In this document: positions 10,021 through 29,920 of the stretch, in pieces
How positions within the stretch are numbered: position 1 is the first letter of the stretch
Layout: each line of letters begins with the position of its first letter
From: Candidatus Rokuibacteriota bacterium
GTDB taxonomy: Bacteria > Methylomirabilota > Methylomirabilia > Rokubacteriales > CSP1-6
Assembly: GCA_016179965.1 (NCBI GenBank)
Contig: JACPCF010000017.1
Location: 1 to 41,307 of the forward strand
Direction of reading: 5' to 3'
DNA length: 41,307 bases
The notes under the pieces: model-generated
Database searches by the model: none
What the model was told of the DNA's origin: nothing
Seen by the model: only the letters and a program-made list of their open reading frames with translations
Program-made: the position numbers and the translations under genes

Positions 10021-10438
10021 GGCTGTCAGACAGAGAGTCGGTAGTATCTGATCTGGACGTCAGATCGTAGTCGACATAAAGCCCATTCTCGGACGCGGCG
10101 CGCGCGGCCGCGGCCGGCGATCCAACTGGACGCGAGCCGGCGGGGGTCACCATCTACCATTCCTGATACAGTCCGTCAGATGTACCAACAAGAAGCCGCA
10201 AAGGTGGCATGGTTCACCGTACCTCTCGATCACTTACTTCTGGGGATTAGGTCCATACGACTCGAACTCGTGTTTCGGTCGAGAAGCGCGGTCTGCCCTC
10301 CACATATACCATTTCGGCCTCACGTACTTTGTGGAAATTGACTGGCCCAGAGTAACTAATGAAAGCCTTTAAGTTCCCGGTCGGCATTTGTTTGCCCTCG
10401 TTGCAGGCTGCTCCCTACGGTGACGCTCGAAATCCGGC
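10021..10438. other. Gene-free stretch at the left edge of the defence island
   Basis: About 420 bases without a credible gene. It starts with CTGTCAGACAG (10023-10033) and an inverted repeat ATCTGA (10046-10051)/TCAGAT (10060-10065), possibly a terminator for the oxidoreductase gene. The rest is visibly lower in GC than the neighbours. The body of hsdM would be expected here but is absent; I see no integrase, tRNA or transposase in it. Confidence 0.6.
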
Positions 10439-10597
10439 TGCAATCCAGCGGAGGAGGTAGAAAACTACCCAGGGCACCGCGATGTCCAGACGCTCCTGGA
10501 CGAGCTGGCCAGCCTGGACACCCAGGCCAGACGGCTGGACGACGAGCTCGAGGGGATCTTCACCGGCCTGGGGTACCGATGGAGAGGGAAGCGTTGA
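10424..10597 (+). pseudogene. hsdM: hsdM 3' remnant (type I restriction-modification methyltransferase, C-terminal ~50 codons)
   Basis: After a stop at 10421-10423, a frame runs to TGA at 10595-10597 and reads NPAEEVENYPGHRDVQTLL, then DELASLDTQARRLDDELEGI and FTGLGYRW. This is the typical HsdM tail: an acidic linker, then a short coiled coil ending before the stop. No methyltransferase motifs (N-P-P-F/Y, SAM-binding) are found upstream, so only the C-terminus survives. Its stop overlaps the ATG of the ORF6N gene at 10579, preserving the original operon junction. Confidence 0.65.
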
Positions 10598-11121
10598 GCG
10601 CTCTCGTGCCGACCGAACGGATCGACCGGGCCATTCTCGTCATACGCGACCGGAAAGTCATGCTCGACGCGGATTTAGCCAGGCTCTACGGGGTCACGAC
10701 CAAGCGGCTCAACGAACAGGTCAAGCGCAACCGGGATCGCTTCCCCGAGGATTTCATGTTTCGGTTAACTGCTGAGGAGAAGGCCGAGGTGGTCGCAGAT
10801 TGCGACCACCTCCAGCGGCTCAAGTTTTCACCCTCTTCGCCTTACGCTTTCACTGAGCACGGTGCGCTCATGCTGGCCAGTGTCCTGAACAGCCGGGTGG
10901 CCATTCAGACCAGTATACAGATCGTGCGTGTCTTCATCCGTCTGCGCGAGGCGCTTACGTCCAATAGGCACCTCGCCCGCAAGCTGGAAGCCCTCGAGAA
11001 GAAGTACGACGCCCAGTTCAAGGAGGTATTCGATGCCATCCGCAAGCTCATGGAGCCTCCTCCTGGTATCGCAAAGCGTCGGATTGGCTTCCGTCCCTTC
11101 CCCCTCGAGCACAAGTCATGA
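10579..11121 (+). CDS. ORF6N domain-containing protein
   Basis: 180 residues. The segment IDRAILVIRDRKVMLDADLA through LYGVTTKRLNEQVKRNRDRF and PEDFMFRLT is the ORF6N/KilA-N-type DNA-binding domain found in phage antirepressors and frequently beside type I restriction-modification genes. A C-terminal helical region (ARKLEALEKKYDAQFKEVFD) looks like a coiled coil. I start at the ATG at 10579; the longer frame to 10420 covers the hsdM tail in another frame. Its stop overlaps the start of hsdS (ATGA at 11118), so the two are co-translated. It may regulate the restriction operon, but that is inference. Confidence 0.82.
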   Translation: MEREALSALVPTERIDRAILVIRDRKVMLDADLARLYGVTTKRLNEQVKRNRDRFPEDFMFRLTAEEKAEVVADCDHLQRLKFSPSSPYAFTEHGALMLASVLNSRVAIQTSIQIVRVFIRLREALTSNRHLARKLEALEKKYDAQFKEVFDAIRKLMEPPPGIAKRRIGFRPFPLEHKS

Positions 11122-12377
11122 CAGGACTCTTCCCTCCAAAAGAGCTGAGAATGAACGATTGGGTTACATATCGCCTCGGCGATCCTAATGTTTCAAGTAT
11201 CATCATGGGTCAATCTCCCGACTCCGCTACGTACAACCCCTCCCGGGAAGGGTTGCCATTCTTCCAGGGAAAAGCAGACTTCGGCGTTCGGTACCCTATG
11301 CCCAAGACGTGGTGTTCGGCGCCCACCCGCGTGGCAGAACCGGGCGACATCTTGGTCTCTGTACGTGCTCCGGTGGGCGACGCCAATATCGCAGTAGAGC
11401 GATGTTGCATCGGTCGCGGGATCGCCGCGCTTAGACCTGGCCCTAGAACCCACGGGGAATTCCTCTTCTACTTGCTGCTGCACCATAAGCCCGATCTTGA
11501 CGGCCTTGGATCTGGCGCGATTTTCAAGTCAGTTAACAAGGACACGCTGCGAGACTTTGAAATCGCCCTGCCCTCAGTCGTGGAGCAGAGGGCGATGGCG
11601 GCGGTACTGGCGAAGATTCAGACGGCGGTAGAGGTACAGGAGAAGATCGTCGCCACGCTCAAGGAGCTGAAGGCCGCGACCATGGCCAAGCTCTTCCGCG
11701 AAGGCCTGCGCGGCGAGCCCCTCAAGCAAACCGAGATCGGTGAGATCCCAGCGAGCTGGGAAGTGGTGAGACTTGGAGAAGTAGCGAGTATCGAGCGTGG
11801 AAAATTTGCTCATCGTCCTCGAAACGATCCGAGATTTTACGGTGGAGCGATACCGTTCATTCAAACCGGCGACGTTGCACGGTGCAATGGAAGGATTCGG
11901 ACTTATACCCAGACGCTCAATGAAGATGGTTTGGCGATCAGTCGGCTGTTTCCGAAAGGGACTATCGTGCTTACGATTGCTGCGAATATTGCTGACACGG
12001 GGATCCTGGAGTTTGACAGCGCCTTCCCGGACAGTTTGGTTGGGATTACGCCCGACGAGACCATGGACCCTGTGTTTCTCGAATACTACCTCCGAACGCA
12101 GAAGGCCGAGATGAACCGCCTGGCTCCAAAGGGCACCCAGAAGAACATCAACATCGAGTTTCTCAAACCGTGGCCGACTCCCCATCCCTTAATCGATGAA
12201 CAGCGAAAAATCGCGCAGAGCCTGCGCCGTCTGGACGACAGGCTGCAGGCGGCATCGGTGCAGCGCGAAACTCTCAAGTCTCTCTTTTCCTCCATGCTCC
12301 ACCTGCTCATGACCGGCCAGGTTCGAGTGACCGGGTTGACCGCTTTAGACGGCCAGCTGCCCTCCAGACGGACGTAG
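11118..12377 (+). CDS. hsdS: Type I restriction-modification specificity subunit HsdS
   Basis: 419 residues with the two-repeat architecture of HsdS: target-recognition domain 1 (residues ~10-150), a central conserved helix region (VEVQEKIVATLKELKAATMA near 175, then LKQTEIGEIPASWEVVRLGE), target-recognition domain 2 (~220-350), and the C-terminal helix with EQRKIAQSLRRLDDRLQAA. Each recognition domain reads half of a bipartite DNA target. It needs HsdM to methylate and HsdM plus HsdR to cut. Because hsdM is reduced to a remnant here, this subunit lacks its local partner. The reading frame itself is intact. Confidence 0.92.
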   Translation: MTGLFPPKELRMNDWVTYRLGDPNVSSIIMGQSPDSATYNPSREGLPFFQGKADFGVRYPMPKTWCSAPTRVAEPGDILVSVRAPVGDANIAVERCCIGRGIAALRPGPRTHGEFLFYLLLHHKPDLDGLGSGAIFKSVNKDTLRDFEIALPSVVEQRAMAAVLAKIQTAVEVQEKIVATLKELKAATMAKLFREGLRGEPLKQTEIGEIPASWEVVRLGEVASIERGKFAHRPRNDPRFYGGAIPFIQTGDVARCNGRIRTYTQTLNEDGLAISRLFPKGTIVLTIAANIADTGILEFDSAFPDSLVGITPDETMDPVFLEYYLRTQKAEMNRLAPKGTQKNINIEFLKPWPTPHPLIDEQRKIAQSLRRLDDRLQAASVQRETLKSLFSSMLHLLMTGQVRVTGLTALDGQLPSRRT

Positions 12378-12396
12378 GGCGCTAAGGAGGGTTCTC

Positions 12397-13005
12397 GTGG
12401 AGTTCTTGGCGTGGCCTGTAGTGGCGCTTATTCTCGGTATCGTTGCCATTTTTGTCTTCAAGCAGCCGCTGACCCGGTTTCTTGACCGAGCGGAGAAGAT
12501 TGGAAAAGGAGGTATTCAGGCAGCAACCGGTGCCCAGACCGGCGGCATGGAAGTAAAGCCCTCCCCGGCAGACGAACTCCTTAAGGCCTTCGACAATGCC
12601 CTTCTAGTGCAGCGGGAGAAGTTCATTACAGCCGAACTTGAGCGACTGCATATCGGTCCTGGTTCCGATCGAGAACGTGTTTTGATTCGCCTTCTTGCGG
12701 CGCTCTCCTTGGTCCAGAGCTTTGAACGAACGTACACGCTGATCTGGGGGAGTCAAATTTCAGCCCTACAATTCCTGAATTCAGCGGGTGCCGTCCGGCC
12801 TGATCTCCTCCGGCCGGAGTACGACCAGGCCGCAGCACGTGAGCCTGCGTTGTACGCTGGCTACACCTTTGACCAGTGGCTTCACTTTCTTGAAGTAAAT
12901 CTTTTTATTCTTCGATCCGCTGATACCGTCACCATCAGTCTGGAAGGCCGAGAGTTTCTCAAGTATCTGCTTCACCAGGGGTATACCCTCTACAAGCGTG
13001 GATAA
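12397..13005 (+). CDS. Unknown membrane-anchored protein in the restriction operon
   Basis: 202 residues from a GTG at 12397 preceded by a strong ribosome site (AAGGAGG at 12384-12390). The N-terminus is one hydrophobic helix (EFLAWPVVALILGIVAIFVF, residues 2-21), followed by basic residues, so the protein is probably anchored in the inner membrane with a cytoplasmic domain. The C-terminal segment, TVTISLEGREFLKYLLHQGY, resembles the last helix and wing of a winged-helix domain. No known family recognised. It sits between hsdS and hsdR, 19 bases after one and 44 before the other. Confidence 0.75.
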   Translation: MEFLAWPVVALILGIVAIFVFKQPLTRFLDRAEKIGKGGIQAATGAQTGGMEVKPSPADELLKAFDNALLVQREKFITAELERLHIGPGSDRERVLIRLLAALSLVQSFERTYTLIWGSQISALQFLNSAGAVRPDLLRPEYDQAAAREPALYAGYTFDQWLHFLEVNLFILRSADTVTISLEGREFLKYLLHQGYTLYKRG

Positions 13006-13049
13006 CGGGCCGGCAATGACTGCTACAAATTGCGGTCGGAATACGACTT

Positions 13050-15932
13050 ATGTCCCCTAACCTCGGGACCGAACGGCCCACCGTCCAGGACCCTCTGATC
13101 CGCTATGCGGTGGAGATCGGGTGGGCGTACCTGTCTCCCGAGGAAGCCCTGACGCTCCGGCGGGGGGAGAGCGGCACGCTTCTCTACCAGACGCTTGCTG
13201 ATAAGTTGATCGCCCTCAATCCTGGCGTGGTCACGGTGGAAAAGATTGACCAGGTGATCGCGCGAATCGAGGAGGTCCGGAACAACATTGAGGGGAACGC
13301 CGAGATACTGGCCTGGCTGCGGGGAGAGCGCTCGGTGTACGTCGAGAGCGAGAAACGGCAGCGCAATGTGACGGTCATCGACTTCGAGCATCCGGCGAAC
13401 AACATCTTTCAGGTTACTGACGAGTGGGAATACACCAACGGCCAGCACACGAACCGGGCTGATGTGATGTTCCTCGTCAACGGTATACCCGGGACAGTGG
13501 TGGAGACCAAGAGCGCCAAGAAGAGCGAGGGAATTGACGAGGGGATCGCCCAGATCCGCCGCTACCACCGGGAAACGCCGGAGCTGATGACGGCCCCGCA
13601 GGTCTTCGACGTTACCCACCTCCTGGACTTCTACTACGGCGTTACCTGGAACCTTGACCGCAAAGACCTTTTCAACTGGAAAGACGAGGAAAAGGGGAAT
13701 TTTGAAAAGAAGGTGAAGCGCTTCTTCGCACGCGAGCGCTTCCTGAAGCTTCTCAGGGACTGGATCATCTTTTTCAAGAAGGACGACGAGCTGCGGAAGA
13801 TCGTCCTGCGCCAGCACCAGACCCGGGCCGTCGAGAAGGTGGTCGAGCGGGTGCTGGACCCGGTAAAGCGCACCGGCCTGGTCTGGCACACTCAGGGTGC
13901 TGGCAAGACCTTCACGATGATCTCGGCGGCTGAGCAGATCCTCTCCCATCCCGCCTTTGAGAAGCCGACGGTCGTCATGTTGGTGGACCGGAACGAATTG
14001 GAGAGCCAACTGTTCGCGAACCTCAAGGCCTACGGCCTGGGCTACGAGCAGGCGACCTCGAAAGCGAGACTGCGGGAACTATTAAAGGCGGACTACCGCG
14101 GCCTCATCGTCTCAATGATCCATAAGTTCGACAAGGCCGATGCGAATCTGTGCCCACGGGTCAACGTGTTCGTTTTTGTGGACGAGGCCCACCGCACGAC
14201 GAGCGGCGACCTTGGGAACTACCTCGTCGCCGCGCTCCCCAACGCGACGATGGTTGGGTTTACCGGCACCCCGATTGACAAGATCGCCTACGGCAAGGGG
14301 ACCTTCAAAGTCTTTGGCAAGGACGACGAGAAGGGCTACCTCGACAAGTATTCCATCGCCGAGTCCATCGAGGACGGCACAACGCTGCCGCTCCACTACA
14401 CGGTCGCGCCGAACGACATCCGGGTGCCACGGGAACAGCTGGAGCGGGAGTTTTTCGATCTCGTGGAGGCGGAGGGCGTCAGTGACATCGAGGAGCTGAA
14501 CAAGATCCTTGATCGAGCGGTCAACCTGAAAGCCTTCCTGAAGGCCGGTGAACGTGTGGAGAAGGTAGCCCGATTTGTTGCGGAGCACTTCCGGCAGAAT
14601 GTTGAGCCTCTCGGCTACAAAGCATTCCTCGTGGGCGTGGATCGGGAGGCGTGCGCGCTCTACAAGAAGTCCCTGGACCGCCACCTCCCACAGGATTACT
14701 CGGCCGTAGTCTATACCTCGGCGCACAATGATAGCGAACTTCTGGCCGAGTATAGGCTGGGAGCGGACGACGAAAAGAGAATCCGCAAGGCATTTATTAA
14801 GGTGGGAGTGGTGCCCAAGATCCTGATCGTCACGGAGAAGTTGCTCACGGGTTTCGACGCCCCGATTCTCTACTGCATATATCTGGACAAGCCGATGCGG
14901 GACCATACGCTCCTCCAGGCTATTGCCCGAGTCAACCGTCCTTACGAAGAGGAAGGCGTGATCAAGAAGCCGGCCGGCTTCGTCCTAGACTTTGTCGGGA
15001 TCTTCGAGAGGCTGGAGAAGGCGCTGGCCTTCGATTCAGATGTCGTCGATAGCGTGATCCAGAATCTGGATGTCCTTAAGGAGCGGTTCGGCAGGCTGAT
15101 GGCGGAGCAGGCACCGGGGTACCTGGCGTTCTGCCGTGGTCCCATTGACGACAAGGCGGTCGAGAGAGCCATTGACGCCTTCGGCGAGAAAGAGAAGCGC
15201 GAGGCGTTCTACAAGTTCTTCAAAGAGCTTCAGATCTTGTACGAGATCATCTCGCCGGATGCATTCCTCCGTGAGCACCTCGATTATTACGGCAAGCTGT
15301 CGGTTCTCTACGAGATCGTCCAAAACGCTTTCAGCAAGCAGGTGGCTCTATACAGGGACGTTGCGAAGAAAACGGAATCGTTCGTGCGTGAGCGGGTCAA
15401 GATCTCCGGGCTCCTGACCACCATGCCGCTCGTCAAGATTGACGAAAAGGCCCTTGACGCTTTGAAGAGCGCCGATTCCTCGCCCCATGCAAAGGTCTTC
15501 AATCTGGGGAAGAGCCTGGCCCAGGCCGCGGCCGAAGGGGGGGAGCGGGAACCGTACCTGTTCCCCATCGGGGATCGAGCAGAAGCGATTCTGGAGGCTT
15601 ATGACGACAGGCAGATCGGGACCCAGGAGGCTCTGAGGGAGTTGGAGAAACTCCTTGGCGAGTTTGTGCAAGCGCGTAAGGAGCGCGAGAAAACAGGCTT
15701 CGACCTTAGTACGTTCACGATTTACTGGGTCCTGAAACAGACGGGCTCGCCCGAGCCGGAGAAGTTGGCGCCCTTGCTGGACGGAGCTTTTGGGCGCTTT
15801 CCGAACTATAGGGACAACGCCGCTGAGCGCCGCCAGCTCAAGGCCGAGTTATACAAAGTGCTCCTGCCCGCGGTGGGCAAGGAAAGAATGGTCGAGCTAG
15901 CGGAGCGACTCATGTGGTTGCACCGAAAGTGA
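13050..15932 (+). CDS. hsdR: Type I restriction endonuclease subunit HsdR
   Basis: 960 residues with all the expected parts. The N-terminal nuclease has DVMFLVNGIPGTVVETKSAK (near residue 138), containing the acidic residue and E-x-K. Helicase motifs follow: Walker A HTQGAGKTF (near 280), DEAH box FVFVDEAHRT (near 375), motif III GFTGTPI (near 408) and motif VI QAIARVNRPY (near 625). The C-terminal helical domain would dock on the HsdM-HsdS complex. HsdR translocates DNA using ATP and cleaves unmethylated DNA. The gene looks intact, yet the matching hsdM is missing nearby. Its 3' end overlaps the YgjP-like gene by 19 bases. Confidence 0.95.
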   Translation: MSPNLGTERPTVQDPLIRYAVEIGWAYLSPEEALTLRRGESGTLLYQTLADKLIALNPGVVTVEKIDQVIARIEEVRNNIEGNAEILAWLRGERSVYVESEKRQRNVTVIDFEHPANNIFQVTDEWEYTNGQHTNRADVMFLVNGIPGTVVETKSAKKSEGIDEGIAQIRRYHRETPELMTAPQVFDVTHLLDFYYGVTWNLDRKDLFNWKDEEKGNFEKKVKRFFARERFLKLLRDWIIFFKKDDELRKIVLRQHQTRAVEKVVERVLDPVKRTGLVWHTQGAGKTFTMISAAEQILSHPAFEKPTVVMLVDRNELESQLFANLKAYGLGYEQATSKARLRELLKADYRGLIVSMIHKFDKADANLCPRVNVFVFVDEAHRTTSGDLGNYLVAALPNATMVGFTGTPIDKIAYGKGTFKVFGKDDEKGYLDKYSIAESIEDGTTLPLHYTVAPNDIRVPREQLEREFFDLVEAEGVSDIEELNKILDRAVNLKAFLKAGERVEKVARFVAEHFRQNVEPLGYKAFLVGVDREACALYKKSLDRHLPQDYSAVVYTSAHNDSELLAEYRLGADDEKRIRKAFIKVGVVPKILIVTEKLLTGFDAPILYCIYLDKPMRDHTLLQAIARVNRPYEEEGVIKKPAGFVLDFVGIFERLEKALAFDSDVVDSVIQNLDVLKERFGRLMAEQAPGYLAFCRGPIDDKAVERAIDAFGEKEKREAFYKFFKELQILYEIISPDAFLREHLDYYGKLSVLYEIVQNAFSKQVALYRDVAKKTESFVRERVKISGLLTTMPLVKIDEKALDALKSADSSPHAKVFNLGKSLAQAAAEGGEREPYLFPIGDRAEAILEAYDDRQIGTQEALRELEKLLGEFVQARKEREKTGFDLSTFTIYWVLKQTGSPEPEKLAPLLDGAFGRFPNYRDNAAERRQLKAELYKVLLPAVGKERMVELAERLMWLHRK

Positions 15933-16288
15933 GAGCGCTTGCTGCAAGAACCCACTCGGAACCGGCTGCCCGGGATGCCCCAGCCTTGAAGGTCATCGTG
16001 CGGCGTTGGGCGTCAAAGATCGGTGTGGAGCCCAAACGCGTTCACGTTCAGCGCATGACCACGAAGTGGGCATCGTGTTCACTCAGCGGCCGGCTGTGCT
16101 TCAGCAGCGATCTGCTCCTCGAAGATGCCGCATTCCAGGAGGCCGTTATCGTACACGAGTTGCTGCATCTCCGCGTACCCAATCACGGGAAGCTGTTTAG
16201 AAGTCTGATGGCTGCCTATGCGCCGGGTTGGGAGGGAGCCGGGGTGTTGAGGATCTCCGAGAGGTGCGGTCGTGGGCGCCAGGGATAG
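15914..16288 (+). CDS. YgjP-like (DUF45) zinc metallopeptidase
   Basis: 124 residues. The zinc site VIVHELLHLRVPNHGKLF (near residue 77) gives H-E-x-x-H plus a third His seven residues on, as in YgjP/WLM-type metallopeptidases. An upstream block, TTKWASCSLSGRLCFSSDLL, matches the family's W-G-S-C-x-x-x-G-x-x-x-x-N pattern. Such genes are very often directly downstream of hsdR in type I systems, as here, where its ATG lies inside the last codons of hsdR. The role in restriction is not known. Confidence 0.85.
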   Translation: MVAPKVRALAARTHSEPAARDAPALKVIVRRWASKIGVEPKRVHVQRMTTKWASCSLSGRLCFSSDLLLEDAAFQEAVIVHELLHLRVPNHGKLFRSLMAAYAPGWEGAGVLRISERCGRGRQG

Positions 16289-16400
16289 GGCCGTGGATGA
16301 GCTCGAGAGGTTGCGGGGACAGCTCACTGAGGATCAGCGAGCGGTCCTTAGGCTATTTACCCTTATAAAACAGCGTTTAGGCGACAAACTGGGCTCCTAG
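16272..16400 (+). CDS. Possible 42-residue helical peptide
   Basis: A GTG at 16272 inside the last codons of the YgjP-like gene opens a frame to TAG at 16398-16400. The peptide includes DELERLRGQLTEDQRAVLRL and FTLIKQRLGDKLGS, an amphipathic helix with heptad-like leucines. The overlap suits translational coupling, but the frame also runs through the first of four direct repeats, there is no obvious ribosome site, and no family is recognised. It may be spurious. Confidence 0.3.
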   Translation: MGARDRAVDELERLRGQLTEDQRAVLRLFTLIKQRLGDKLGS

Positions 16401-16497
16401 GCAGCGCTATTTAGCGCTACGCCGACTCTAGGCCACATATCTTTAGCACTTGAGCGACTAAATATAGTTTAAAATAGCGCATAGACGACAAATTAGG
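16365..16497 (+). promoter_or_regulatory. Four spaced direct repeats upstream of the AbiEi-Fic gene (probable operator array)
   Basis: Four copies of AGC-N7-CGAC occur at 16372, 16413, 16445 and 16476, always with CGAC ten bases after AGC (16382, 16423, 16455, 16486). Centre spacings are 41, 32 and 31 bases, close to whole helical turns. Copies 1 and 4 match over a longer stretch (TTAtAAAA-type lead, then AGCG, TAG, CGACAAA and GGG). A perfect inverted repeat, AGCGCTA (16403-16409)/TAGCGCT (16412-16418), overlaps copy 2, and a TATAGT hexamer lies at 16463-16468. AbiEi-type antitoxins are known to repress their own promoters through repeats. Confidence 0.65.
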
Positions 16498-16505
16498 GGC
16501 CAGCG

Positions 16506-18032
16506 GTGGCAAACCTAGCAGTTACCCGACAAGACGAAGTTTTCATCACCCGAGGCAACGAATCGGGGGCGGAAACGCGGGCGATTCAGCGCCGGGCCAA
16601 GGAAGGCGAGCTGACCCGTATCGCGGAAGGCATCTACCTCCGAGAGAAGGAGCCCGAGGCGCAGAAGGCGGTCGTGCGCCGCAATTGGTTTCGGATACTC
16701 GGAGCCCTTGCCCCCGGCGCAGTCGTGTCATACCGCAGCGCCTACGCAGGGGGGATCACGCCGGACGGGGCCGTGCACCTCAGCCACCCCACCAACTTCA
16801 ACCGGAAAATCACCCTGCCCGGCGTGCAGGCGGTTCTGGTCAAAGGCCCGGGCCCGCTACCCGGCGACATGCCGCTCGGAGACGGCAAGCTCTATTTCGC
16901 TTCTCGTCCCCGCCAGCTCCTGGAGAACCTGTCTCCCGAACGCGGCGCGCGCGGCAAGTCCGTGGGCGCGAAGGCGGTTGAAGAGTTGCTCATCACGTTA
17001 CTGCATGCGAACGGCGAGGCCGAGCTCAACCGGATCCGTGACGACGCAAGAGCGCTCGTCGAGCCCTTGGGTTTCAAGGAGCAGTTCAGGAAGCTCGACA
17101 AGCTCATTGGCGCGCTTCTCGCCACGCATGCTGACGGCGTTCTCAAGACGAAAGAGGGAAAGCTCGTTGCGAAGGGCACGCCCGTCGATTCGGAGAGGAT
17201 GGCGCGCTTCGAGACGCTCGCCGCGAAACTTCGCGCCATGGTCCTCGCCCGTCGCCCTGCGGTGGCGCCGAATGAGCCGGCGCGTTCCTGCTTCGCGTTT
17301 CTCGAAGCGTACTTCTCCAACTACGTGGAAGGCACCGAATTTGCGATCGAGGAGGCACGCGACATCGCGCTCGAAGGGCGCATTGTCGAGCAGCGCCCGA
17401 AAGACTCCCATGACATCCTGGGGGTCTTCCGGCTGGCGCTTCAGTCTCCCGGCCGCGATACGGTCCCTCCTTTCGGTGCGGATTTTGCGGTGGAACTCGC
17501 AAGACGCCATGCGCAAATGCTGGAAAAACGCCCGGAAAGCAACCCCGGTCAGTTCAAGCTCGAGCCGAACCGGGCGGGCGGAACCTGGTTCGTCGATCCT
17601 CACCTGGTACGGGGCACCCTCATCGAGGGCTCGATGCTTGCGCGAAGCATCCCCGAAGGGCTTGCCCGCGCCATTTACTACTCGTTTCTCGTGACCGAGG
17701 TGCATCCCTTCAATGACGGAAACGGGAGGATCTCCAGACTGGTGATGAATGCCGAGCTTTCACGCGTGGGCGAGGCGCGCATCATCATTCCAACACTGTT
17801 TCATGAGGAATACGTGGACTGCCAACGCCAGTTGTCACGTCAGAACAATCCCGCCGGCATCATCCGCGCCCTTTCGCTCATGCAGCAATGGACCGTTGCT
17901 TTCGACTATGCGGACGTGAATGCGCTCATCGAGGCCGTCAGACACACCAACGCGCTTGAGCGCTCCCGCGTGCAGTTCCGTCTCACCATGCCCGATGGTT
18001 CACCGCTCGCGAACGAGCAAGCACAGGCGTGA
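16506..18032 (+). CDS. AbiEi-like N-terminal domain fused to a Fic domain
   Basis: 508 residues from a GTG start. Residues ~1-100 (GELTRIAEGIYLREKEPEAQ, then PGAVVSYRSAYAGG) resemble the winged-helix N-terminus of AbiEi/type IV antitoxins. The C-terminal half is a Fic domain with HPFNDGNGRISR near residue 399, matching the full HPFx(D/E)GNGRxxR active site, so AMP transfer (or another NMP) to a protein hydroxyl is expected. SNYVEG near residue 271 fits the inhibitory S/T-x3-E-G/N motif, so activity is probably self-restrained. The next, truncated gene starts within its stop codon. Four direct repeats precede it, suggesting autoregulation. Confidence 0.82.
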   Translation: MANLAVTRQDEVFITRGNESGAETRAIQRRAKEGELTRIAEGIYLREKEPEAQKAVVRRNWFRILGALAPGAVVSYRSAYAGGITPDGAVHLSHPTNFNRKITLPGVQAVLVKGPGPLPGDMPLGDGKLYFASRPRQLLENLSPERGARGKSVGAKAVEELLITLLHANGEAELNRIRDDARALVEPLGFKEQFRKLDKLIGALLATHADGVLKTKEGKLVAKGTPVDSERMARFETLAAKLRAMVLARRPAVAPNEPARSCFAFLEAYFSNYVEGTEFAIEEARDIALEGRIVEQRPKDSHDILGVFRLALQSPGRDTVPPFGADFAVELARRHAQMLEKRPESNPGQFKLEPNRAGGTWFVDPHLVRGTLIEGSMLARSIPEGLARAIYYSFLVTEVHPFNDGNGRISRLVMNAELSRVGEARIIIPTLFHEEYVDCQRQLSRQNNPAGIIRALSLMQQWTVAFDYADVNALIEAVRHTNALERSRVQFRLTMPDGSPLANEQAQA

Positions 18033-22190: not shown

Positions 22191-23264
22191 TTATTCGTCT
22201 CCCTGGATGAAGCGCTCAAGCCGCTGGCGGGCGACCTCGTCGGACCACTGCTCCGGGGGGGACTTCATCAGGTAGGCCGACGGCGCGACAAGCGCGCCCT
22301 TCAGCCCCCGATCCAACGCGATCTTGCAGTAGCGGATCGCGTCGATGACGACCCCGGCCGAGTTGGGGGAGTCCCAGACCTCGAGCTTGAGCTCGAGGGA
22401 GAGCGGGAGGTCGCCGAAACCGCGTCCCTCCAGTCGGATGTGGGCCCACTTGCGATCCTGGAGCCACGGCACGTAGTCGCTGGGGCCGATGTGAACGGCC
22501 TCCGGGGGGAGCGGGTGGGCGAGCTGCGAGGTGACGGCGTCCGTCTTCGAGGTCTTCTTGGACTGGAGGCGCTCGCGCTCCAGCATGTTGTAGAAGTCGG
22601 TGTTCCCGCCCACGTTGAGCTGGCTGGTATGCTCCAGCCGCACGCCGCGGTCCATGAACAGCTTGGTGAGGGCCCGGTGCACGATCGTGGCGCCCACCTG
22701 CGACTTGACGTCGTCGCCGATGACTGGCAGCCCGCGCTCCTCGAAGCGGCGGCGCCAGTACGCCTCCCGCGCGATGAACACCGGAATGCAGTTGACGAAG
22801 GCGCACTCGGCGTCCAGCACCTGCTCTACGTACCACTTGGTCGCCATCTCGCTGCCCACGGGGAGGAAGTTCACCACGACGTGGGTGCCCGTCTCGCGGA
22901 GAATGCCGACGATGTCGGCGGTGGCGCCGGGCGCCTTCGTGACCACCTGGGACAGGTAGTGGCCCAGCCCGTCGTGGGTCATCCCCCGGTGGACCGGGAC
23001 GCCGAGCGGCGGGACGGGGGCGAAGCGGGCGGTGTTGTTCGGGGGCGCGAAGATCGCCTCGGAGAGGTCCCGGCCGACCTTCCCCGCATCGATGTCGAAG
23101 GCCGCGGAGAACTCGATGTCCCCCAGGTGATAGCCGCCGAGCCGCGGGTGCATGAGCCCGGGAATGAAGCCGTCCTCGGGCGCCTGCCGGTAGTAGCGGA
23201 CCCCCTGGACGAGGGCGGACGCGCAGTTGCCGACTCCGATGATGGCCACGCGAACGACTGTCAC
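22191..23264 (-). CDS. ino1: myo-Inositol-3-phosphate synthase
   Basis: 357 residues, the short actinobacterial/archaeal length. It starts with a Rossmann motif, [18 protein letters not shown] (G-x-G-x-x-x-S). Later blocks are [17 protein letters not shown] (near residue 180), [12 protein letters not shown] (near 218) and [10 protein letters not shown] (near 236), where Lys residues bind the phosphate and drive the cyclisation. It converts glucose 6-phosphate to inositol 3-phosphate (1L numbering) using NAD+ in a redox-neutral step. Beside a CDP-alcohol phosphatidyltransferase and a cytidylyltransferase it may supply an inositol phosphate headgroup. A repeat separates it from the oxygenase gene upstream. 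Confidence 0.92.
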
Positions 23265-23426: not shown

Positions 23427-24172
23427 GCCCGGCGGATCAGCGCGCGTATCCCGAAATACGCGATGGCATCCTTCATGTTGGAGACGAACCGCCTGAAGAC
23501 TGCCATCTCCGGGTTCGTGACGTACTCCATGGTGAGGACGACCCGCTCCCCGCCGGGGGCGAGCGGCGTGACGGCATGGTACAGCTTGGGGCCGTTGAAG
23601 ATCACCAGGGCCCCGGGGCCGTATGCCCACTGGATCTCGCGGGTCTCCCGCGTGGGGTCGTCCTTGTAGAGCCGGGCGACCAGCCGGCAGTGATCGGTGC
23701 GCTGGACCAGCCCCATGAGGACCGTGTAGCGGGCGCCCTTGTAATAGGAATTGTCGTAGTGAAAGCCCATGTGGTCCCCGGGCTCCGTGTAGAAGTAGAG
23801 CGCGCAGGCGTGCGGGTCGTCCTCGGGGCAGGGGAGCAGGCGGGCCCCCGTGAGGCGGCTCAGGAAGTCGATGAAGGCGGGGGACTTGTAGAAGGCCAGG
23901 AAGAGCGGGGCCTTCTCGGCCAGCGTGTAGTAGCTGATGCTCCCGCCCTTCTTGTGGCCGGGGATGTAATTCCGGTGGACGTTGGGACGGAGCTTGTCCA
24001 CCTCGGGCAGGAAGCAGCGCTCCACCAGCTCCGGGGGCAGGAAGCGATCCAGGAAGAGGCATTCGTTCTGCTCCCAGTACTTCCGGCGCGCGCCCTCGAA
24101 GTCCACGCCGGCGAGGGCGCGGGCGAGGGCCCGCTCCACTTCTCCCTCTTGAGCCGCGACGCGATCGGTCAT
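23318..24172 (-). CDS. 2-Oxoglutarate/Fe(II)-dependent oxygenase
   Basis: About 284 residues from the ATG at 24172, which overlaps the stop of the HpnL-like gene. Iron ligands are visible as HYD in HMGFHYDNSYYKGARYTVL (near residue 150) and the distal His in LYHAVTPLAPGGERVVLTM (near 208), with Arg in GGERV to bind 2-oxoglutarate. It would hydroxylate or otherwise oxidise an unknown substrate; in this operon a lipid or headgroup is a fair guess. The fold ends near residue 248. The rest (PSPSSSPPHPTHDPLTFILS and onward) is encoded by a palindromic repeat and is probably not functional. Confidence 0.8.
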   Translation of the reverse strand: MTDRVAAQEGEVERALARALAGVDFEGARRKYWEQNECLFLDRFLPPELVERCFLPEVDKLRPNVHRNYIPGHKKGGSISYYTLAEKAPLFLAFYKSPAFIDFLSRLTGARLLPCPEDDPHACALYFYTEPGDHMGFHYDNSYYKGARYTVLMGLVQRTDHCRLVARLYKDDPTRETREIQWAYGPGALVIFNGPKLYHAVTPLAPGGERVVLTMEYVTNPEMAVFRRFVSNMKDAIAYFGIRALIRRAPSPSSSPPHPTHDPLTFILSPPRGRGQGEGGEEKR

Positions 24173-25140
24173 GTGAGATCGGAGCCGGTGGCCGTCCGGA
24201 AGAGGGAGAGGGTCACGAGCCCGGCGGCCACCCACGTCAGCTCCCTGAAGCGCCGGACCAGCGTCATGCTGAGCCCGGCCGCGCCCCCCAGGCCGAAGGC
24301 GGCGAAGACGGCCATGTTCCCCCCCTCGAGGGCCCCGAGCCCCGCCGGGATGAGAAACGCCGCCGACTTGATGGCCGCGGCGAAGGCCTCGATGACCAGC
24401 GCCGTGGCGAGCGAGATGGGGGTTCCCATGAAGTGGAGGATCAGATAGACCTCGAGGCTGCCGACCAGCCAGCCGACGAAGTGGAAGAGGAGGGACAGCG
24501 TGAGGCGGCCCCGGTGCTCCCGATAGAAAACCGACAAGGCGCTGTCGAGGCGACGGACCCCCTCGTGCCCCTGCTCTCCCCACGAGAGGCCGAGCGCGCG
24601 GAGGAACCGGAGCCCGCGCCCGAAGAGCCCCTTCTGCTGGGCGAGGACGAAGCCTCCCAGGGCGACGGCTTCCACCGCCGCCAGCCCCGTCATGCCCTTG
24701 AGGAGCGGCGCCGCCGGCGGCAGCACGGCGAGCGCCACGGCGATCCCCACCAGCAGAAACGCTCCCTGGGCCAGGGTCACGGTGGTCTTGGCGATGATGA
24801 CGGAGGCCAGCCCCTCGCCGAGCGGGACCCGGGGCCGGAGGAGGTACGCCTTCACCGGCTCGCCGCCCACGGACGCCGTCGGCGTCGTGAGATTGAACGC
24901 CTCCCCCGCCAGCCGCGCCGCCAGCAGCGTGGGGAAGGAGGTGAGGTCGCGCCGGAACGCGTAGCGCCAGCCCAGCGTGTCCAGCACGGTGATCAGGGCG
25001 AACGGGAACCACACGATGAGCAGGAGACGCCAGGAAATGGCCTGAAAGGAGGCCAGCAGGGTCTCGGGGCCCACCTGGACCACGAGGTAGCCGAGGAAGG
25101 CGACGCCGATCGCGAGGAGGATCAGCCGGACGGTGGTCAT
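24169..25140 (-). CDS. hpnL: HpnL-like/UPF0104 integral membrane protein
   Basis: 323 residues with about seven or eight hydrophobic helices. The motif FNLTTPTASVGGEPVKAYLL (near residue 85) and the later PAGLGALEGGNMAVFAAFGL (near 270) are typical of the lysylphosphatidylglycerol synthase transmembrane (UPF0104) family, whose hopanoid-associated branch is HpnL. Members are proposed lipid flippases. The start overlaps the end of the CDP-alcohol phosphatidyltransferase gene (ATGA) and the stop overlaps the oxygenase start. It may flip the lipid made by the adjacent enzymes. The choice between HpnL and another UPF0104 subgroup is not certain. Confidence 0.75.
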   Translation of the reverse strand: MTTVRLILLAIGVAFLGYLVVQVGPETLLASFQAISWRLLLIVWFPFALITVLDTLGWRYAFRRDLTSFPTLLAARLAGEAFNLTTPTASVGGEPVKAYLLRPRVPLGEGLASVIIAKTTVTLAQGAFLLVGIAVALAVLPPAAPLLKGMTGLAAVEAVALGGFVLAQQKGLFGRGLRFLRALGLSWGEQGHEGVRRLDSALSVFYREHRGRLTLSLLFHFVGWLVGSLEVYLILHFMGTPISLATALVIEAFAAAIKSAAFLIPAGLGALEGGNMAVFAAFGLGGAAGLSMTLVRRFRELTWVAAGLVTLSLFRTATGSDLT

Positions 25141-26360
25141 CGGCCGGTCACCCAGCGACGGCCGAGGCACGTCAGCCAGTACCCCTGGGAACCTACCGCG
25201 AGGAGGCCGACCAGAATCGGCAGTAGCCCAGGAGCGAACCAGAGGCCCAGGAGGAAGGCCACCAGCACCAGGTAGAAGAGATCCCGGGTTCCCAGCCCCT
25301 TGAGCACTGTGGCCAGCCGCTCCTCCCCGGAGGCTTCCTCGGGGAGGAAGCGGGCAAAGAGTGCGCTCAGGATGACGCCGAAGGCGGCAACGGCGCCGGC
25401 GACCAGCATCGTGGGTTCTCCGACTCGGCTCGCGGTGACGCCCATGCCCAGGACGAGGGCCGCGTGGATCACCGTGTCGGTGGTGAAGTCGAGCCACTCG
25501 CCGAAGGCGGATTCCTGGAAGGTGAGGCGGGCGACCTCGCCGTCGGAGTGATCCACGACGACGGCCAGCAGGTAGAGGACGAACCCCGCGAGCGCCGAGG
25601 CCGGCCTGGCGGGCCAGAGCATCCAGGCGGCGGCGAGCCCCAGGGCCAGGCTCAGCAAGGTCACCTGGTTGGGCGTGACGGGCAACCGGATCAGAAAGCG
25701 AGTGAGCCAGCGCGAGCACCGGCGGTTGATCATCCGGTCCACGTGGCTGTCGGCGCTGATTCCCAGGCTCCGGAAGAGCGTGGCCTCGGCCTCGCTGCGA
25801 CTGGCCTCGTCCAGCACGGGCACGAAGAAGCCGGCGCCCACCACCAGCGTCATCCGTCCCTGCCTGACCCGCACCTCGAGGTCGTCTCCGAGCGGCGCCC
25901 CCTGGACGAGTCGATCCCATAGCGCGGCCGCAAGCGCGGCGGGAGCCAGCAGGATCGGCGAGAGGCTTCCCTTCGATTCCTCGAGGGCGATGCCCTCGCC
26001 CGGGTCGCGTTCCGCGAGGAGCCGCCGGAGGCTCTGCGGGTCCAGGAGCACGTTGGCCGGGAGGAGGAGAAGCGGGCCGCTGCTCCAGTCGCGCGCCTGG
26101 GCGGGGCTGAGCCGATCGAGCCAGACGACCGCCGCTCGGAGACGGGGGTTCGCCGCGATCCTGCCCTCAACGGCCGCATCCCTGAGGGACGCCGGCACGC
26201 CGATCTCGCGAACTCCCCCGCGCTCGCCGGTCAGGAGCGTCCGGACGAGCATCGCCCGCCCCGCCACCTGGCTCGCGGCCGCGGCGCGGCTCGTCGGATC
26301 CGGGAGGTACACGACGGCGCGGGGCAATGGGAGCGCGCCGCGCGCTGCTGGGTGGGTCAC
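25137..26360 (-). CDS. CDP-alcohol phosphatidyltransferase with an extra N-terminal domain
   Basis: 407 residues from a GTG overlapping the stop of the upstream nucleotidyltransferase gene (GTGA). The C-terminal membrane domain has the complete signature D-x2-D-G-x2-A-R-x8-G-x3-D-x3-D as DHSDGEVAR, then FGEWLDFTTD (near residues 275-298), so metal-dependent transfer of a CDP-linked group is expected. The ~200-residue N-terminus lacks a working nucleotide-binding loop, but the junction (RSEAEATLFRSLGISADSHV, then INRRCSRWLTR and TPNQVTL) looks like that of bifunctional inositol-phosphate cytidylyltransferase/DIPP synthases. The N-domain may be a decayed transferase, with the separate upstream gene supplying that activity. 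Confidence 0.82.
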   Translation of the reverse strand: MTHPAARGALPLPRAVVYLPDPTSRAAAASQVAGRAMLVRTLLTGERGGVREIGVPASLRDAAVEGRIAANPRLRAAVVWLDRLSPAQARDWSSGPLLLLPANVLLDPQSLRRLLAERDPGEGIALEESKGSLSPILLAPAALAAALWDRLVQGAPLGDDLEVRVRQGRMTLVVGAGFFVPVLDEASRSEAEATLFRSLGISADSHVDRMINRRCSRWLTRFLIRLPVTPNQVTLLSLALGLAAAWMLWPARPASALAGFVLYLLAVVVDHSDGEVARLTFQESAFGEWLDFTTDTVIHAALVLGMGVTASRVGEPTMLVAGAVAAFGVILSALFARFLPEEASGEERLATVLKGLGTRDLFYLVLVAFLLGLWFAPGLLPILVGLLAVGSQGYWLTCLGRRWVTGR

Positions 26361-27103
26361 GCGTCGGCCCCGAGGCGGCGGATGAGCGGGAGCACATCCT
26401 CTTCGGCCCGCTGGAGGTCTTCGACGAAATCGATCTCCGTCCACGGCAGCCCGCCCACGTCCACCCAGCCGACATGGACGCGGCGCAGCAGGAGATCGAT
26501 GGCGTCCTCGTACTCGCGGTACCGGCTCTGGTCCCGGAGGACTTCTTCCATGCAGTCCCGGAGCACCGACCCGTGGGCGGACGCGCACTTGAAGAAGCCG
26601 ACCCCCTCGCCGACCGTGTCGTGGGGCGGCGGCTCGAGGACCTTCTTTCCGATCGCCAGGACCTGCCCCGCCCGGGCATAGACCTTTACCTCTTCGCCCG
26701 TGTCGGTGAAGCCCCGGTCGATCAGGAGCGCGCTCGGGGCGGGGCACTCCACCAGACTGCGGAGCATGCCGGTGGGGAAGAGGACATCGGCGTCCATCAC
26801 GACCACGTCCGCGTCCAGCTCGTCCCGGCAGACCCAGAGGGATCGGATGGAGTCCCGCGTGTACTCGGGGTTCTCGATGTAACGGACGGGCAGTCGCCCG
26901 AAGCGGCTTCCCGCCACCCGGCGGATCTGGTCCTGGCAGTGGCCCACGACGATCACCGCCTCTGAGACGGGGAGCGCGGCGAGGGATTCCAGCATGCGCT
27001 CGAGCAGCGAGCGGCCCCCCACCGGGAGCAGGCACTTCGGCTGGCGATCGGTCAGCGGCGCCAGGCGATGTCCCACTCCGGCGGCCAGGATGAGGGCGCG
27101 CAT
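26357..27103 (-). CDS. Sugar/choline-phosphate-type nucleotidyltransferase (probable cytidylyltransferase)
   Basis: 248 residues with the nucleotidyltransferase start MRALILAAGVGHRLAPLT, the PKCLLPV Lys, and VVVMDADVLFP (near residue 100) for metal binding. The block YTRDSIRSLWVCRDEL (near 80) resembles LicC/PntC-type CTP:phosphocholine or 2-aminoethylphosphonate cytidylyltransferases. It should activate a phosphate or phosphonate headgroup with CTP for the adjacent CDP-alcohol phosphatidyltransferase; inositol phosphate is another candidate. Its start overlaps the stop of the decarboxylase gene (TGATG) and its stop overlaps the next start. Confidence 0.82.
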   Translation of the reverse strand: MRALILAAGVGHRLAPLTDRQPKCLLPVGGRSLLERMLESLAALPVSEAVIVVGHCQDQIRRVAGSRFGRLPVRYIENPEYTRDSIRSLWVCRDELDADVVVMDADVLFPTGMLRSLVECPAPSALLIDRGFTDTGEEVKVYARAGQVLAIGKKVLEPPPHDTVGEGVGFFKCASAHGSVLRDCMEEVLRDQSRYREYEDAIDLLLRRVHVGWVDVGGLPWTEIDFVEDLQRAEEDVLPLIRRLGADA

Positions 27104-28236
27104 CAGGCCCTCCCCAGCGCGGCGCGGAACCGATCCCGGATCACGGGCGGCGCGTAGGGAATCCGCGGCACGGCCCGCGATTCCGGCGTGACCTTGACGA
27201 GGATGAAGGCCGGCCCGTCGGTGGCGAGAGCCTCGCGAGTGGCCAACTCAAGGGCGCCGCGCTCGGTCACGGCGCGGACCCACGGGTACCCGGCGCCGGC
27301 GGCGAGCCGGTCGAGCCTGACCTCCCGCGAGAGCGAGGGCTGATCGCCCGTCGAGCCGTACACTTCGTTGTCGAACACGAAGTGGACGAAGTTCTTCGGC
27401 CCGAGGCCGCCGGCCATCGAGAGGCTGCCCAGGTTCATGAGGAGGTTGCCGTCGCCGTCGAAGACCACGGTCCGCCGGTCGGGCCGGATCAGGGCGACGC
27501 CGAGGCCGATGGACGAGGCGAGCCCCATGGAGCCAAGCATGTAGAAGTTCTGCGGCCGGTCGGCCACGGCGTAGGACTCGCGGCAGATATAGCCGTTGGC
27601 GTGAATGACGGGCTCATCCCCCAGGCATCGGATGATCACGCTCAGCGCCTCAGAGCGGGACACGCACGGCGCGAGATCGGGCTCTTGCTGGGGTCGGTCG
27701 GATCGCGCCTGGCGCCGAGCACCGGGATGAGCCTCGCGCGCGTGCTCGCTTTCAATGACTCCCGGCGGCAGGAGCAGCGCCACGGGCGCCTCCCGCGCCA
27801 GGGTCTCGCGCGTGGCCCAGGCGAGGTCGGCCTCCAGCGAGCTGGCGCCGAGGGCCCGGTGCGGAATGCCGAGCAGATCCAGCAGGCGCGGGGAGATGTC
27901 GCCCATGAGGAGGTGCTCCGGAGCGTCCTGACCCTGGAAGCCGCGCCAGGTCACCACGAGCAGGCAGGGGAACCCGTACATCAGCGAGAGCGAGGCGAGG
28001 GCGTTGAGGCTGGTGCCGAGCCCCGAGTTCTGCATGAGGACCGCCGGCTGCCCCCCGGCGAGCCAGGCCCCCGCGGCGCACCCCACCGCGGCGTCCTCGC
28101 GGATCGCGGGCAGGTAGGGGAGCCGGGGCCGCGTGCCCAGCGCGCTCAGGACGCCTTCCAGCAGGGAGCAGGGAACCCCGGCGAAAAAGTCGTAGCGGTG
28201 CTGCTCGAGAAGATCGACGAATTCTGTTCCCTTCAC
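27103..28236 (-). CDS. Phosphonopyruvate decarboxylase-like ThDP enzyme
   Basis: 377 residues. The N-terminal pyrimidine-binding domain has LPAIREDAAVGCAAGAWLAG with the ThDP-activating Glu (near residue 47), and the C-terminal domain has VVFDGDGNLLMNLGSLSM (near 258) followed by FVFDNEVYGSTGDQPS. Both halves match phosphonopyruvate decarboxylase (Ppd) and the related sulfopyruvate decarboxylase. Ppd makes phosphonoacetaldehyde and pulls the unfavourable PEP mutase step forward; the adjacent PEP mutase-like gene favours that role. A Gln/Arg-rich linker (near residues 165-190) separates the domains. It starts 19 bases after the upstream gene. Confidence 0.85.
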   Translation of the reverse strand: MKGTEFVDLLEQHRYDFFAGVPCSLLEGVLSALGTRPRLPYLPAIREDAAVGCAAGAWLAGGQPAVLMQNSGLGTSLNALASLSLMYGFPCLLVVTWRGFQGQDAPEHLLMGDISPRLLDLLGIPHRALGASSLEADLAWATRETLAREAPVALLLPPGVIESEHAREAHPGARRQARSDRPQQEPDLAPCVSRSEALSVIIRCLGDEPVIHANGYICRESYAVADRPQNFYMLGSMGLASSIGLGVALIRPDRRTVVFDGDGNLLMNLGSLSMAGGLGPKNFVHFVFDNEVYGSTGDQPSLSREVRLDRLAAGAGYPWVRAVTERGALELATREALATDGPAFILVKVTPESRAVPRIPYAPPVIRDRFRAALGRA

Positions 28237-28255: not shown

Positions 28256-29920
28256 TTACTTCCGGATCTCGGCCCACGCCCGCTGGTAGTCCTCGAAGGT
28301 GTCGATCTCCAGCCAGCCCTTGTAGACGTTGACGCAGGAGACCGGGTGCCCCTGGGTCACGAGCTCCTGGAGGATGTCGGTGAACGCCGCGCGGTCCAGG
28401 GTCTCGGACTCGTGGAGCGCGCCGCCCCCGGCCCGCAGCAGTTGCTCGTGCGTCTCCCGGAGCAGGCGGCTGCCGCGCTCGGAGAAGAGGGCCATCCCGA
28501 TGAACTCCCCGGTGGCTTCCTCGGGCGGCACCCGCTGGCCCACCCGGACCAGCGTGTCGTCGTCCTCCGACGGGAGCGAGCGGAGGCCGGGGGGCGGCGG
28601 GTTCGACGTGACCACGAGGTCCAGGGGCTTGGCCAGGGGGAGCAGGCGGTCCCGCTGGTCCATCCACGCGCGGTCCACGACGATGGCCACGTCCGCCCGC
28701 GAGCGGAGCAGCTTCCGGAGCACGGCCGGGTCGAAGAGGATGTCGGAGTAGAGGAAGAGGACGCGGCCGTCCAGCTCCTGTTCGGCGGCGAAGAGGGATG
28801 CGAGCTCGCCCGTCTCCTCGTAGCGGTCGTTGTCGTAGTAGCGGATCCCGGAGAGGGCCACCTTCGCCTTCTGGTAGCCGCGCACCACCACCACGTCGTG
28901 GAGGCCGCACTCTCTCAGGGTTTCCAGCTGGCGCTCCAGGAGCGTGCGCCCCTTGATGTCCAGGAGACACTTGGGCCGGTCTTCGGTGAGCGGGAGCAGC
29001 GATTTCCCCGAGCCGGCGGCGATGATGATCGCCCGGACGTTCGCCGCCCGGGGGAGGAACTCGGCCTCGATCGCCCTGAACTCGGCGACGCCGACGTGCC
29101 GGTAAATCTCCTCGAGCGCCACGATCGTCGGGGCCACGGACTCCAGGTGCTTCGTCCGCTGGAGGAGCGCGAGGGTCTGCTGCATCCCCTTGACGGCGCC
29201 GCGGAGGGCCTGGTTGGCCCAGATGACCAGCTTGACGCCGGCGGCTTCCAGCTCTTCGAAGCTCACGGAGGGGTAAAGGGTTGGGACCACGACGATGGGC
29301 TTCGAACCGTCCCACCGAGCCATGAACTCCAGCACCTCGGCGGCCGTGGGGGCCTTGGAGTGCACGAGGATCATGTCCGCGCCGGCGTCCGCGTACGCGT
29401 GGGCCCGCTTCAGGGCCTCGGCCATCCCCCAGCCCGCGATGAGCGCCTCGGTGCGGGCGATCACCACGAAGTCCGGATCCCGCTGGGCCCGCTTGGCCGC
29501 CCGGATCTTGCCCGAGTGCTCCTCCACCGACGCCAGCTCGCGGCGCGCCCCGGGATAAAGGCTGCACGTCTTGGGGAACACGTTGTCCTCGATGCTGATC
29601 CCGGCGACGCCCGCCTTCTCGTATTCCTCCACCGTCCGGATCACGTTCACGGCGTTGCCGTAGCCGTTGTCGCAGTCGGCGATGACGGGAAGGGTGATCG
29701 CGTCGTTGATGTGGCGGGCCACCTCCACGTTCTCGGTCATCGTGAGGAGGTTGACGTCGGGCATGGCCCGTTGGGCGGCCGAGACCGTGAAGCTCGAGGC
29801 CCAGACCACCGGGAAGCCGGCGGCCTCGATGAGCTTCGCCGAGAGGGCGTCGTGGGCGCCGACGGCGGCCACGAGGCCGGGGCGATGGAGCAGGGCGCGG
29901 AGTTGGGCGGCCTTGGTCAC
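28256..29920 (-). CDS. PEP mutase-like domain fused to a nucleotidyltransferase
   Basis: 554 residues from a GTG overlapping the mlaC stop (GTGA). The first ~290 residues are a PEP mutase/isocitrate-lyase barrel: VVWASSF, MPDVNLLT Asp, ADCDNGYGN (both metal Asp), ISIEDNVFPKTCSLYPG, VVIARTEA Arg and MILVHSKAP His. Most PEP mutase residues are kept, but the diagnostic EDK-x5-NS is EDN-x5-CS, placing Cys where the mutase has a gating-loop Asn and isocitrate lyases have catalytic Cys. Residues ~298-554 are a nucleotidyltransferase (AIIIAAGSGKSLLPLTEDRP, YSDILFD). With the decarboxylase downstream, phosphonate formation is the best guess; another C-P or C-C lyase reaction is possible. Confidence 0.8.
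   Translation of the reverse strand: MTKAAQLRALLHRPGLVAAVGAHDALSAKLIEAAGFPVVWASSFTVSAAQRAMPDVNLLTMTENVEVARHINDAITLPVIADCDNGYGNAVNVIRTVEEYEKAGVAGISIEDNVFPKTCSLYPGARRELASVEEHSGKIRAAKRAQRDPDFVVIARTEALIAGWGMAEALKRAHAYADAGADMILVHSKAPTAAEVLEFMARWDGSKPIVVVPTLYPSVSFEELEAAGVKLVIWANQALRGAVKGMQQTLALLQRTKHLESVAPTIVALEEIYRHVGVAEFRAIEAEFLPRAANVRAIIIAAGSGKSLLPLTEDRPKCLLDIKGRTLLERQLETLRECGLHDVVVVRGYQKAKVALSGIRYYDNDRYEETGELASLFAAEQELDGRVLFLYSDILFDPAVLRKLLRSRADVAIVVDRAWMDQRDRLLPLAKPLDLVVTSNPPPPGLRSLPSEDDDTLVRVGQRVPPEEATGEFIGMALFSERGSRLLRETHEQLLRAGGGALHESETLDRAAFTDILQELVTQGHPVSCVNVYKGWLEIDTFEDYQRAWAEIRK

Follow-up and report, generated by a model that had tools for sequence, protein, structure and literature searches.

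A probable PEP mutase of a cysteine type, with a rebuilt gating loop, in Candidatus Rokuibacteriota and a group of relatives across about a dozen phyla

The window analyzed here, a stretch of 41,307 nucleotides from Candidatus Rokuibacteriota (contig JACPCF010000017.1), encodes a domain that is very likely a genuine PEP mutase (PepM) of a "cysteine type", in which the gating loop was rebuilt with Cys122 and Tyr125 and Lys116 was lost. This reading, together with the pathway described below, draws on conserved residues, the predicted fold, the place of the domain in a tree, its neighboring genes and the sharing of a phosphonopyruvate decarboxylase (Ppd) lineage, from which we infer the reaction itself. 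The odd signature of the domain defines a large natural group across phyla. A changed reaction is unlikely because the PepM residues are kept, the lyase residues are absent, Ppd genes are neighbors and one Ppd lineage serves both the cysteine type and the classical PepM type with the EDKx5NS motif.

The gene is a single open frame of 554 aa (28256-29920, minus strand), and its product is a PepM domain fused to an NTP transferase (Table 1). The coordinates given for the domain in the first-pass annotation span the whole frame, whereas the mutase takes up residues 1-289 and the PF12804 NTP transferase lies from about residue 295 onwards. EDKx5NS PepM proteins are typically fused to a MobA-like (PF12804) NTP transferase, as in the PntC phosphonate cytidylyltransferase fusions (Rice et al. 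2019, PMC6697681), and the window protein has the same arrangement. That survey kept only EDKXXXXXNS sequences and set aside 22 fused sequences without the motif. Alignment of the window domain with Mytilus PEP mutase (1m1b), whose numbering is used for all columns, revealed that D58, D85, D87, E114, K120, S123, R159 and H190 were kept, while K116 was replaced by Asn and N122 by Cys, and the EDKx5NS signature is therefore not present. Both the odd signature and the retention of the metal, substrate and gating Lys residues had been read correctly in the first-pass annotation. The domain belongs to the PEP mutase fold family PF13714, and its score against the PepM model TIGR02320 was 286.5 bits (288.9 in the genome search), below the curated cut-off of 319.55.

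Table 1. Features of the fusion gene and the neighboring phosphonate genes in the window.
Feature	Position	Strand	Evidence
PepM domain, fusion residues 1-289	29054..29920	-	PF13714, 2.5e-61, 207.8 bits, residues 7-251
Motif EDNVFPKTCS, E111-S120	29561..29590	-	Cys119 (column 122) codon at 29564-29566
Fused MobA-like NTP transferase, residues 295-554, PntC-type position	28259..29038	-	PF12804, 5.2e-17
Ppd, single chain	27103..28236	-	TIGR03297, 298.2 vs cut-off 312.5; sulfopyruvate decarboxylase beta, 170.4
NTP2, second stand-alone NTP transferase	26357..27103	-	PF12804, 1.8e-14; weakly like inositol-1-phosphate cytidylyltransferase
CDP-alcohol phosphatidyltransferase	25137..26429	-	PF01066, 4.6e-12
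LPG_synthase_TM flippase-like membrane protein, HpnL-like	24169..25143	-	PF03706, 1.7e-26; TIGR03476 (HpnL), 179.9 vs cut-off 195.65

An AlphaFold2 model of the window PepM domain, built on an alignment of 32 relatives, had a pLDDT of 94.7 and a pTM of 0.92, although the block around the gating loop was lower (77). The closest PDB matches to the model were PepM 5unc (TM 0.96) and PepM 1pym (0.95), followed by phosphonopyruvate hydrolase (PPH; 0.92) and 2-methylisocitrate/isocitrate lyases (MICL; about 0.88-0.91).

A genome scan of bacteria and archaea yielded 79 loci, nearly all of which contained ED[N/A/S]x5C[S/A]; the exceptions were one archaeal EDNx5NS sequence and a few EDKx5NS sequences. 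Once the scan loci had been merged with those from additional genome searches and duplicates discarded, 82 non-identical cysteine-type sequences were left. Cys122 was present in all 82, and residue 116 was never Lys (Asn in 75, Ala in 5 and Ser in 2). About a dozen phyla hold the cysteine type: Rokubacteria, Nitrospirota, Nitrospinota, Omnitrophota, Planctomycetota, Acidobacteriota, Myxococcota, Pseudomonadota, Chlamydiota, Binatota and Peregrinibacteriota, with one actinomycete. As the Cys and the non-Lys residue recur throughout this set, and the Cys occupies the same column in 24/24 MICL-type sequences, the odd motif reflects neither chance nor sequencing error. The TIGR02320 scores recorded for other cysteine-type sequences were about 262-303, and none reached the cut-off. 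Stand-alone PepM proteins without the transferase also occur in the group (L100, L103, L105, L106 and L108; ORFs of 325-343 aa). In the open literature we found no characterized member of the group and no report of a cysteine-type PepM or of a hopanoid-phosphonate link, although an earlier mention is possible.

Compared with classical PepM (TIGR02320; Mytilus 1pym/1m1b and Streptomyces platensis 5unc), the cysteine group has the same fold, metal and substrate residues, Lys120, Ser123, His190, PF12804 fusion and Ppd partner, but it carries Cys for Asn122, Asn, Ala or Ser for Lys116, Phe for Leu48, Tyr at 125 and Thr at 160, and in most members His replaces Phe138. In particular, D58, D85, D87, E114, R159, H190 and K120 were invariant in 82/82 sequences and S123 was kept in 81/82; the PepM-specific residues W44, H190 and N239 were also kept, and S46 mostly so. 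Near-diagnostic columns of the group were Tyr125 (82/82), Phe48 (79/81) and Thr160 (81/82), followed by Arg130 (71/82) and His138 (61/82). On the Mytilus structure, these columns map to the gating loop, its immediate surroundings or the substrate pocket. Most members had Arg or Lys at 121. The loss of Asn122 could matter, since this residue was fixed in all 35 classical sequences.

A tree of 71 sequences, calculated with the motif columns masked, placed the cysteine group on the PepM/PPH side with support of 100/100 against MICL, and thus not among the lyases. All EDKx5NS PepM sequences and PPH formed a clade (100/99) that excluded the group. The first-pass annotation had proposed that a position among characterized PepM enzymes sharing the Cys would make the domain ordinary, and no such position was found. 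When the tree was rooted on MICL, the cysteine group formed a basal grade. A tree in which the group was held as one clade with the archaeal sequence L121 was not rejected (p-AU 0.32; 0.09 without L121), so that a grade and a sister group are both possible. L121 (also L099), from a Thaumarchaeota-labelled archaeal MAG, reads EDNVFPKRNS, with Asn at 122 in the absence of Lys116. It nests in the cysteine group, which shows that Asn and Cys have been interchanged within the group. A more tentative reading, which we hold to be possible but not favored, is that the cysteine types form a grade at the base of the PEP mutase family, the mutase having arisen on an isocitrate-lyase-like scaffold with the lyase Cys still present and the Lys116/Asn122 signature having come later.

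Gene partners were counted in 56 cysteine-type loci of at least 12 kb; the count of NTP-transferase neighbors was set aside because of cross-matches by the fused domain. Ppd, as a single chain or split, was found beside the cysteine-type PepM in 38 of these loci, as it is in the window, and an AEP-transaminase-like gene in 25. Among 12 genomes checked that lacked Ppd at the locus, 10 had a Ppd-family match elsewhere, some of which could be sulfopyruvate decarboxylase. No Ppd was detectable genome-wide in two Phycisphaerales-type genomes (L103 and L108), and cysteine-type loci without Ppd, including these, may do something else. In many relatives, two adjacent genes encode the halves of a split Ppd (for example at L049:6386-7557 and L062:10703-11709), as in sulfopyruvate decarboxylase, and the halves score about equally for the two families.

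Within Rokubacteria, one Ppd lineage (100/99) pairs with cysteine-type PepM in six genera, namely that of the window and five others, and the same lineage pairs with EDKx5NS PepM in three genomes (G017, G019 and G031), the Ppds being about 60% identical. A tree in which the Ppds linked to the cysteine type were forced into one clade was weakly rejected (p-AU 0.036). The simplest reading would be that one PepM type replaced the other while Ppd stayed as it was, and both PepM types would therefore supply the same product, phosphonopyruvate. This sharing is the strongest functional evidence for the mutase reading, although it remains indirect.

The transaminases of the cysteine-type clusters formed their own clade (96/92), and a shared AEP transaminase as a second argument for the exchange is thus unsupported. 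The one transaminase tested, from a cysteine-type Rokubacterium, scored 344.7 bits, just under the PhnW cut-off of 360.8. A PhnW-like gene was present within the cluster in two members of the window's phylum (L035 and L198/G018). The window's cluster contained no transaminase. The best AEP transaminase of the window's genome is unlinked (L205, G000:C94:24958-26010; TIGR03301, 381.8 bits, over the cut-off). It adjoins a periplasmic binding protein whose resemblance to AEP uptake proteins, judged by eye, suggests that the organism may also use AEP, and for this reason we rejected the gene as proof of an AEP product.

We weighed three other explanations. The first-pass annotation had raised a shift to another C-C or C-P lyase-type reaction, and the Cys might indeed serve a carbon-carbon lyase or other superfamily reaction of the isocitrate, methylisocitrate, dimethylmalate or oxaloacetate type, with the decarboxylase acting on another keto acid, such as sulfopyruvate. 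The Cys does stand in the lyase Cys column, as that annotation had stated; Thr160, the non-Lys residue at 116 and, in most members, the basic residue before the Cys are also MICL-like, the group is basal under MICL rooting, and the split Ppd subunits match sulfopyruvate decarboxylase almost as well as Ppd. However, in the lyases the Cys is followed by Gly-His and position 190 is acidic (G123 and H124 in 24/24 MICL-type sequences, E/D at 190 in 24/24), whereas the cysteine group has Ser-Phe/Leu-Tyr and His, with about 30% identity to MICL structures. Gly123, His124 and Glu190 were absent in all cysteine-group sequences aligned, the window itself reading KTCSLY and His instead of K-x-C-G-H and Glu, while the PepM residues His190, Ser123, Trp44 and Asn239 were present. 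The Ppd lineage common to the EDKx5NS PepM of sister genera also argues against a shift, the AEP-transaminase-like neighbors and the fused NTP transferase are consistent with a phosphonate pathway, and three separate MICL-like genes already exist in the window's own genome. We consider a lyase unlikely, and the alternative offered in the first-pass annotation, a PEP mutase variant, is supported by the PepM-specific residues, fold, side of the tree and gene neighborhood.

A catalytically weak or lost mutase, retained for its nucleotidyltransferase half, would account for the disappearance of Asn122 and Lys116, which are otherwise invariant, but no metal or substrate residue varies between phyla, some members lack the transferase and consist of PepM alone, and a PF13714 search of the window's genome found no second PepM, the next best matches being MICL-like; we regard such a loss as very improbable. 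Also very improbable, and in our estimate the most remote of the three, is that the domain is a PPH, a catabolic enzyme. The Variovorax PPH (2dua) belongs to the same superfamily and shares Phe48 and a non-Asn residue at 122 with the cysteine group, and its change at 122 goes with a changed reaction. It differs in having Thr at 122, in keeping Lys116 and in branching inside the EDKx5NS clade (100/99), apart from the cysteine group. The window domain scored 262.6 bits against the PPH model TIGR02321 (cut-off 374.4), below its PepM score, and its neighbors are biosynthetic (decarboxylase, nucleotidyltransferase and CDP-alcohol transferase).

The Mg-dependent dissociative phosphoryl transfer of Mytilus PepM is established. 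As a PEP mutase, the window domain would convert PEP to phosphonopyruvate by the same chemistry, using Asp58, Asp85, Asp87, Glu114, Arg159 and His190, and the neighboring Ppd would pull the unfavorable equilibrium forward by decarboxylation to phosphonoacetaldehyde. The fused NTP transferase would then activate the phosphonate, which the CDP-alcohol transferase would probably join to a lipid, the final lipid being a prediction from these genes. In the closed loop of PepM, Asn122 and Ser123, together with Arg159 and His190, have been proposed to bind the phosphoryl group during its transfer (PMC7916636). In the cysteine type, this role would most naturally fall to Cys122 and to Tyr125, which is invariant; along with the Arg or Lys that most members have at 121, they would stand in for Lys116 and Asn122.

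The phosphonate genes of the window are embedded in a hopanoid cluster (19373-41307). One strand contains HpnN, INO1, a 2OG oxygenase, the HpnL-like flippase, the CDP-alcohol transferase, NTP2, Ppd, PepM, MlaC/D/F/E and squalene-hopene cyclase; the other contains CruF-like, HpnH, HpnG-like, HpnA and squalene/phytoene synthase-like genes (HpnD by position and by eye). The gene order is largely conserved in the six Rokubacteria genera with cysteine-type PepM, and this order was not seen around the EDKx5NS PepM of sister genera. Conceivably, the product of this cluster is a hopanoid or lipid that bears a phosphonate or inositol. Additionally, a mycothiol-type inositol-3-phosphate synthase (22191-23264) lies close to the NTP transferase and CDP-alcohol transferase at 25137-27103, both weakly like inositol-phosphate lipid enzymes, hinting at a possible inositol headgroup. 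Elsewhere in the window, a type I restriction-modification-like stretch (10420-18032) was recognized by eye, with an ORF6N/KilA-like gene (10420-11121), an HsdS-like gene (11118-12377), an HsdR-like helicase (13050-15932) and a Fic-domain-like gene (16506-18032).

The share of the cysteine type was estimated in a census of evenly drawn genomes, using TIGR02320 at E<=1e-60 and reading the motif type from the loci fetched. Among the PepM-like loci fetched, the cysteine type made up 17/30 in Planctomycetota (294 genomes), 9/18 in the window's phylum (95 genomes), 1/24 in Myxococcota (237 genomes) and 0/10 in an actinomycete class (297 genomes). In Nitrospirota (198 genomes), the 30 loci fetched, nearly all top-scoring, were EDKx5NS; 12 of 57 matches fell at 270-290 bits, the range of the cysteine type, of which G067 alone was confirmed as such. 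Three surveys (PMC6697681, PMC8931226 and PMC12723261) used EDKx5NS to define PepM and hence phosphonate producers. The C-P bond is very probably still made by the cysteine group, and therefore the EDKx5NS motif test for counting phosphonate producers would overlook it; the NCBI PepM model cut-off likewise leaves the group out. If the basal-grade reading is true, Asn122 would not be required for C-P bond formation, and surveys based on it would miss a large, old share of phosphonate producers. If active, the cysteine-type enzymes would alter the census of phosphonate producers and would provide a natural test both of the role of the gating Asn in PEP mutase and of the divergence between mutase and lyase chemistry.
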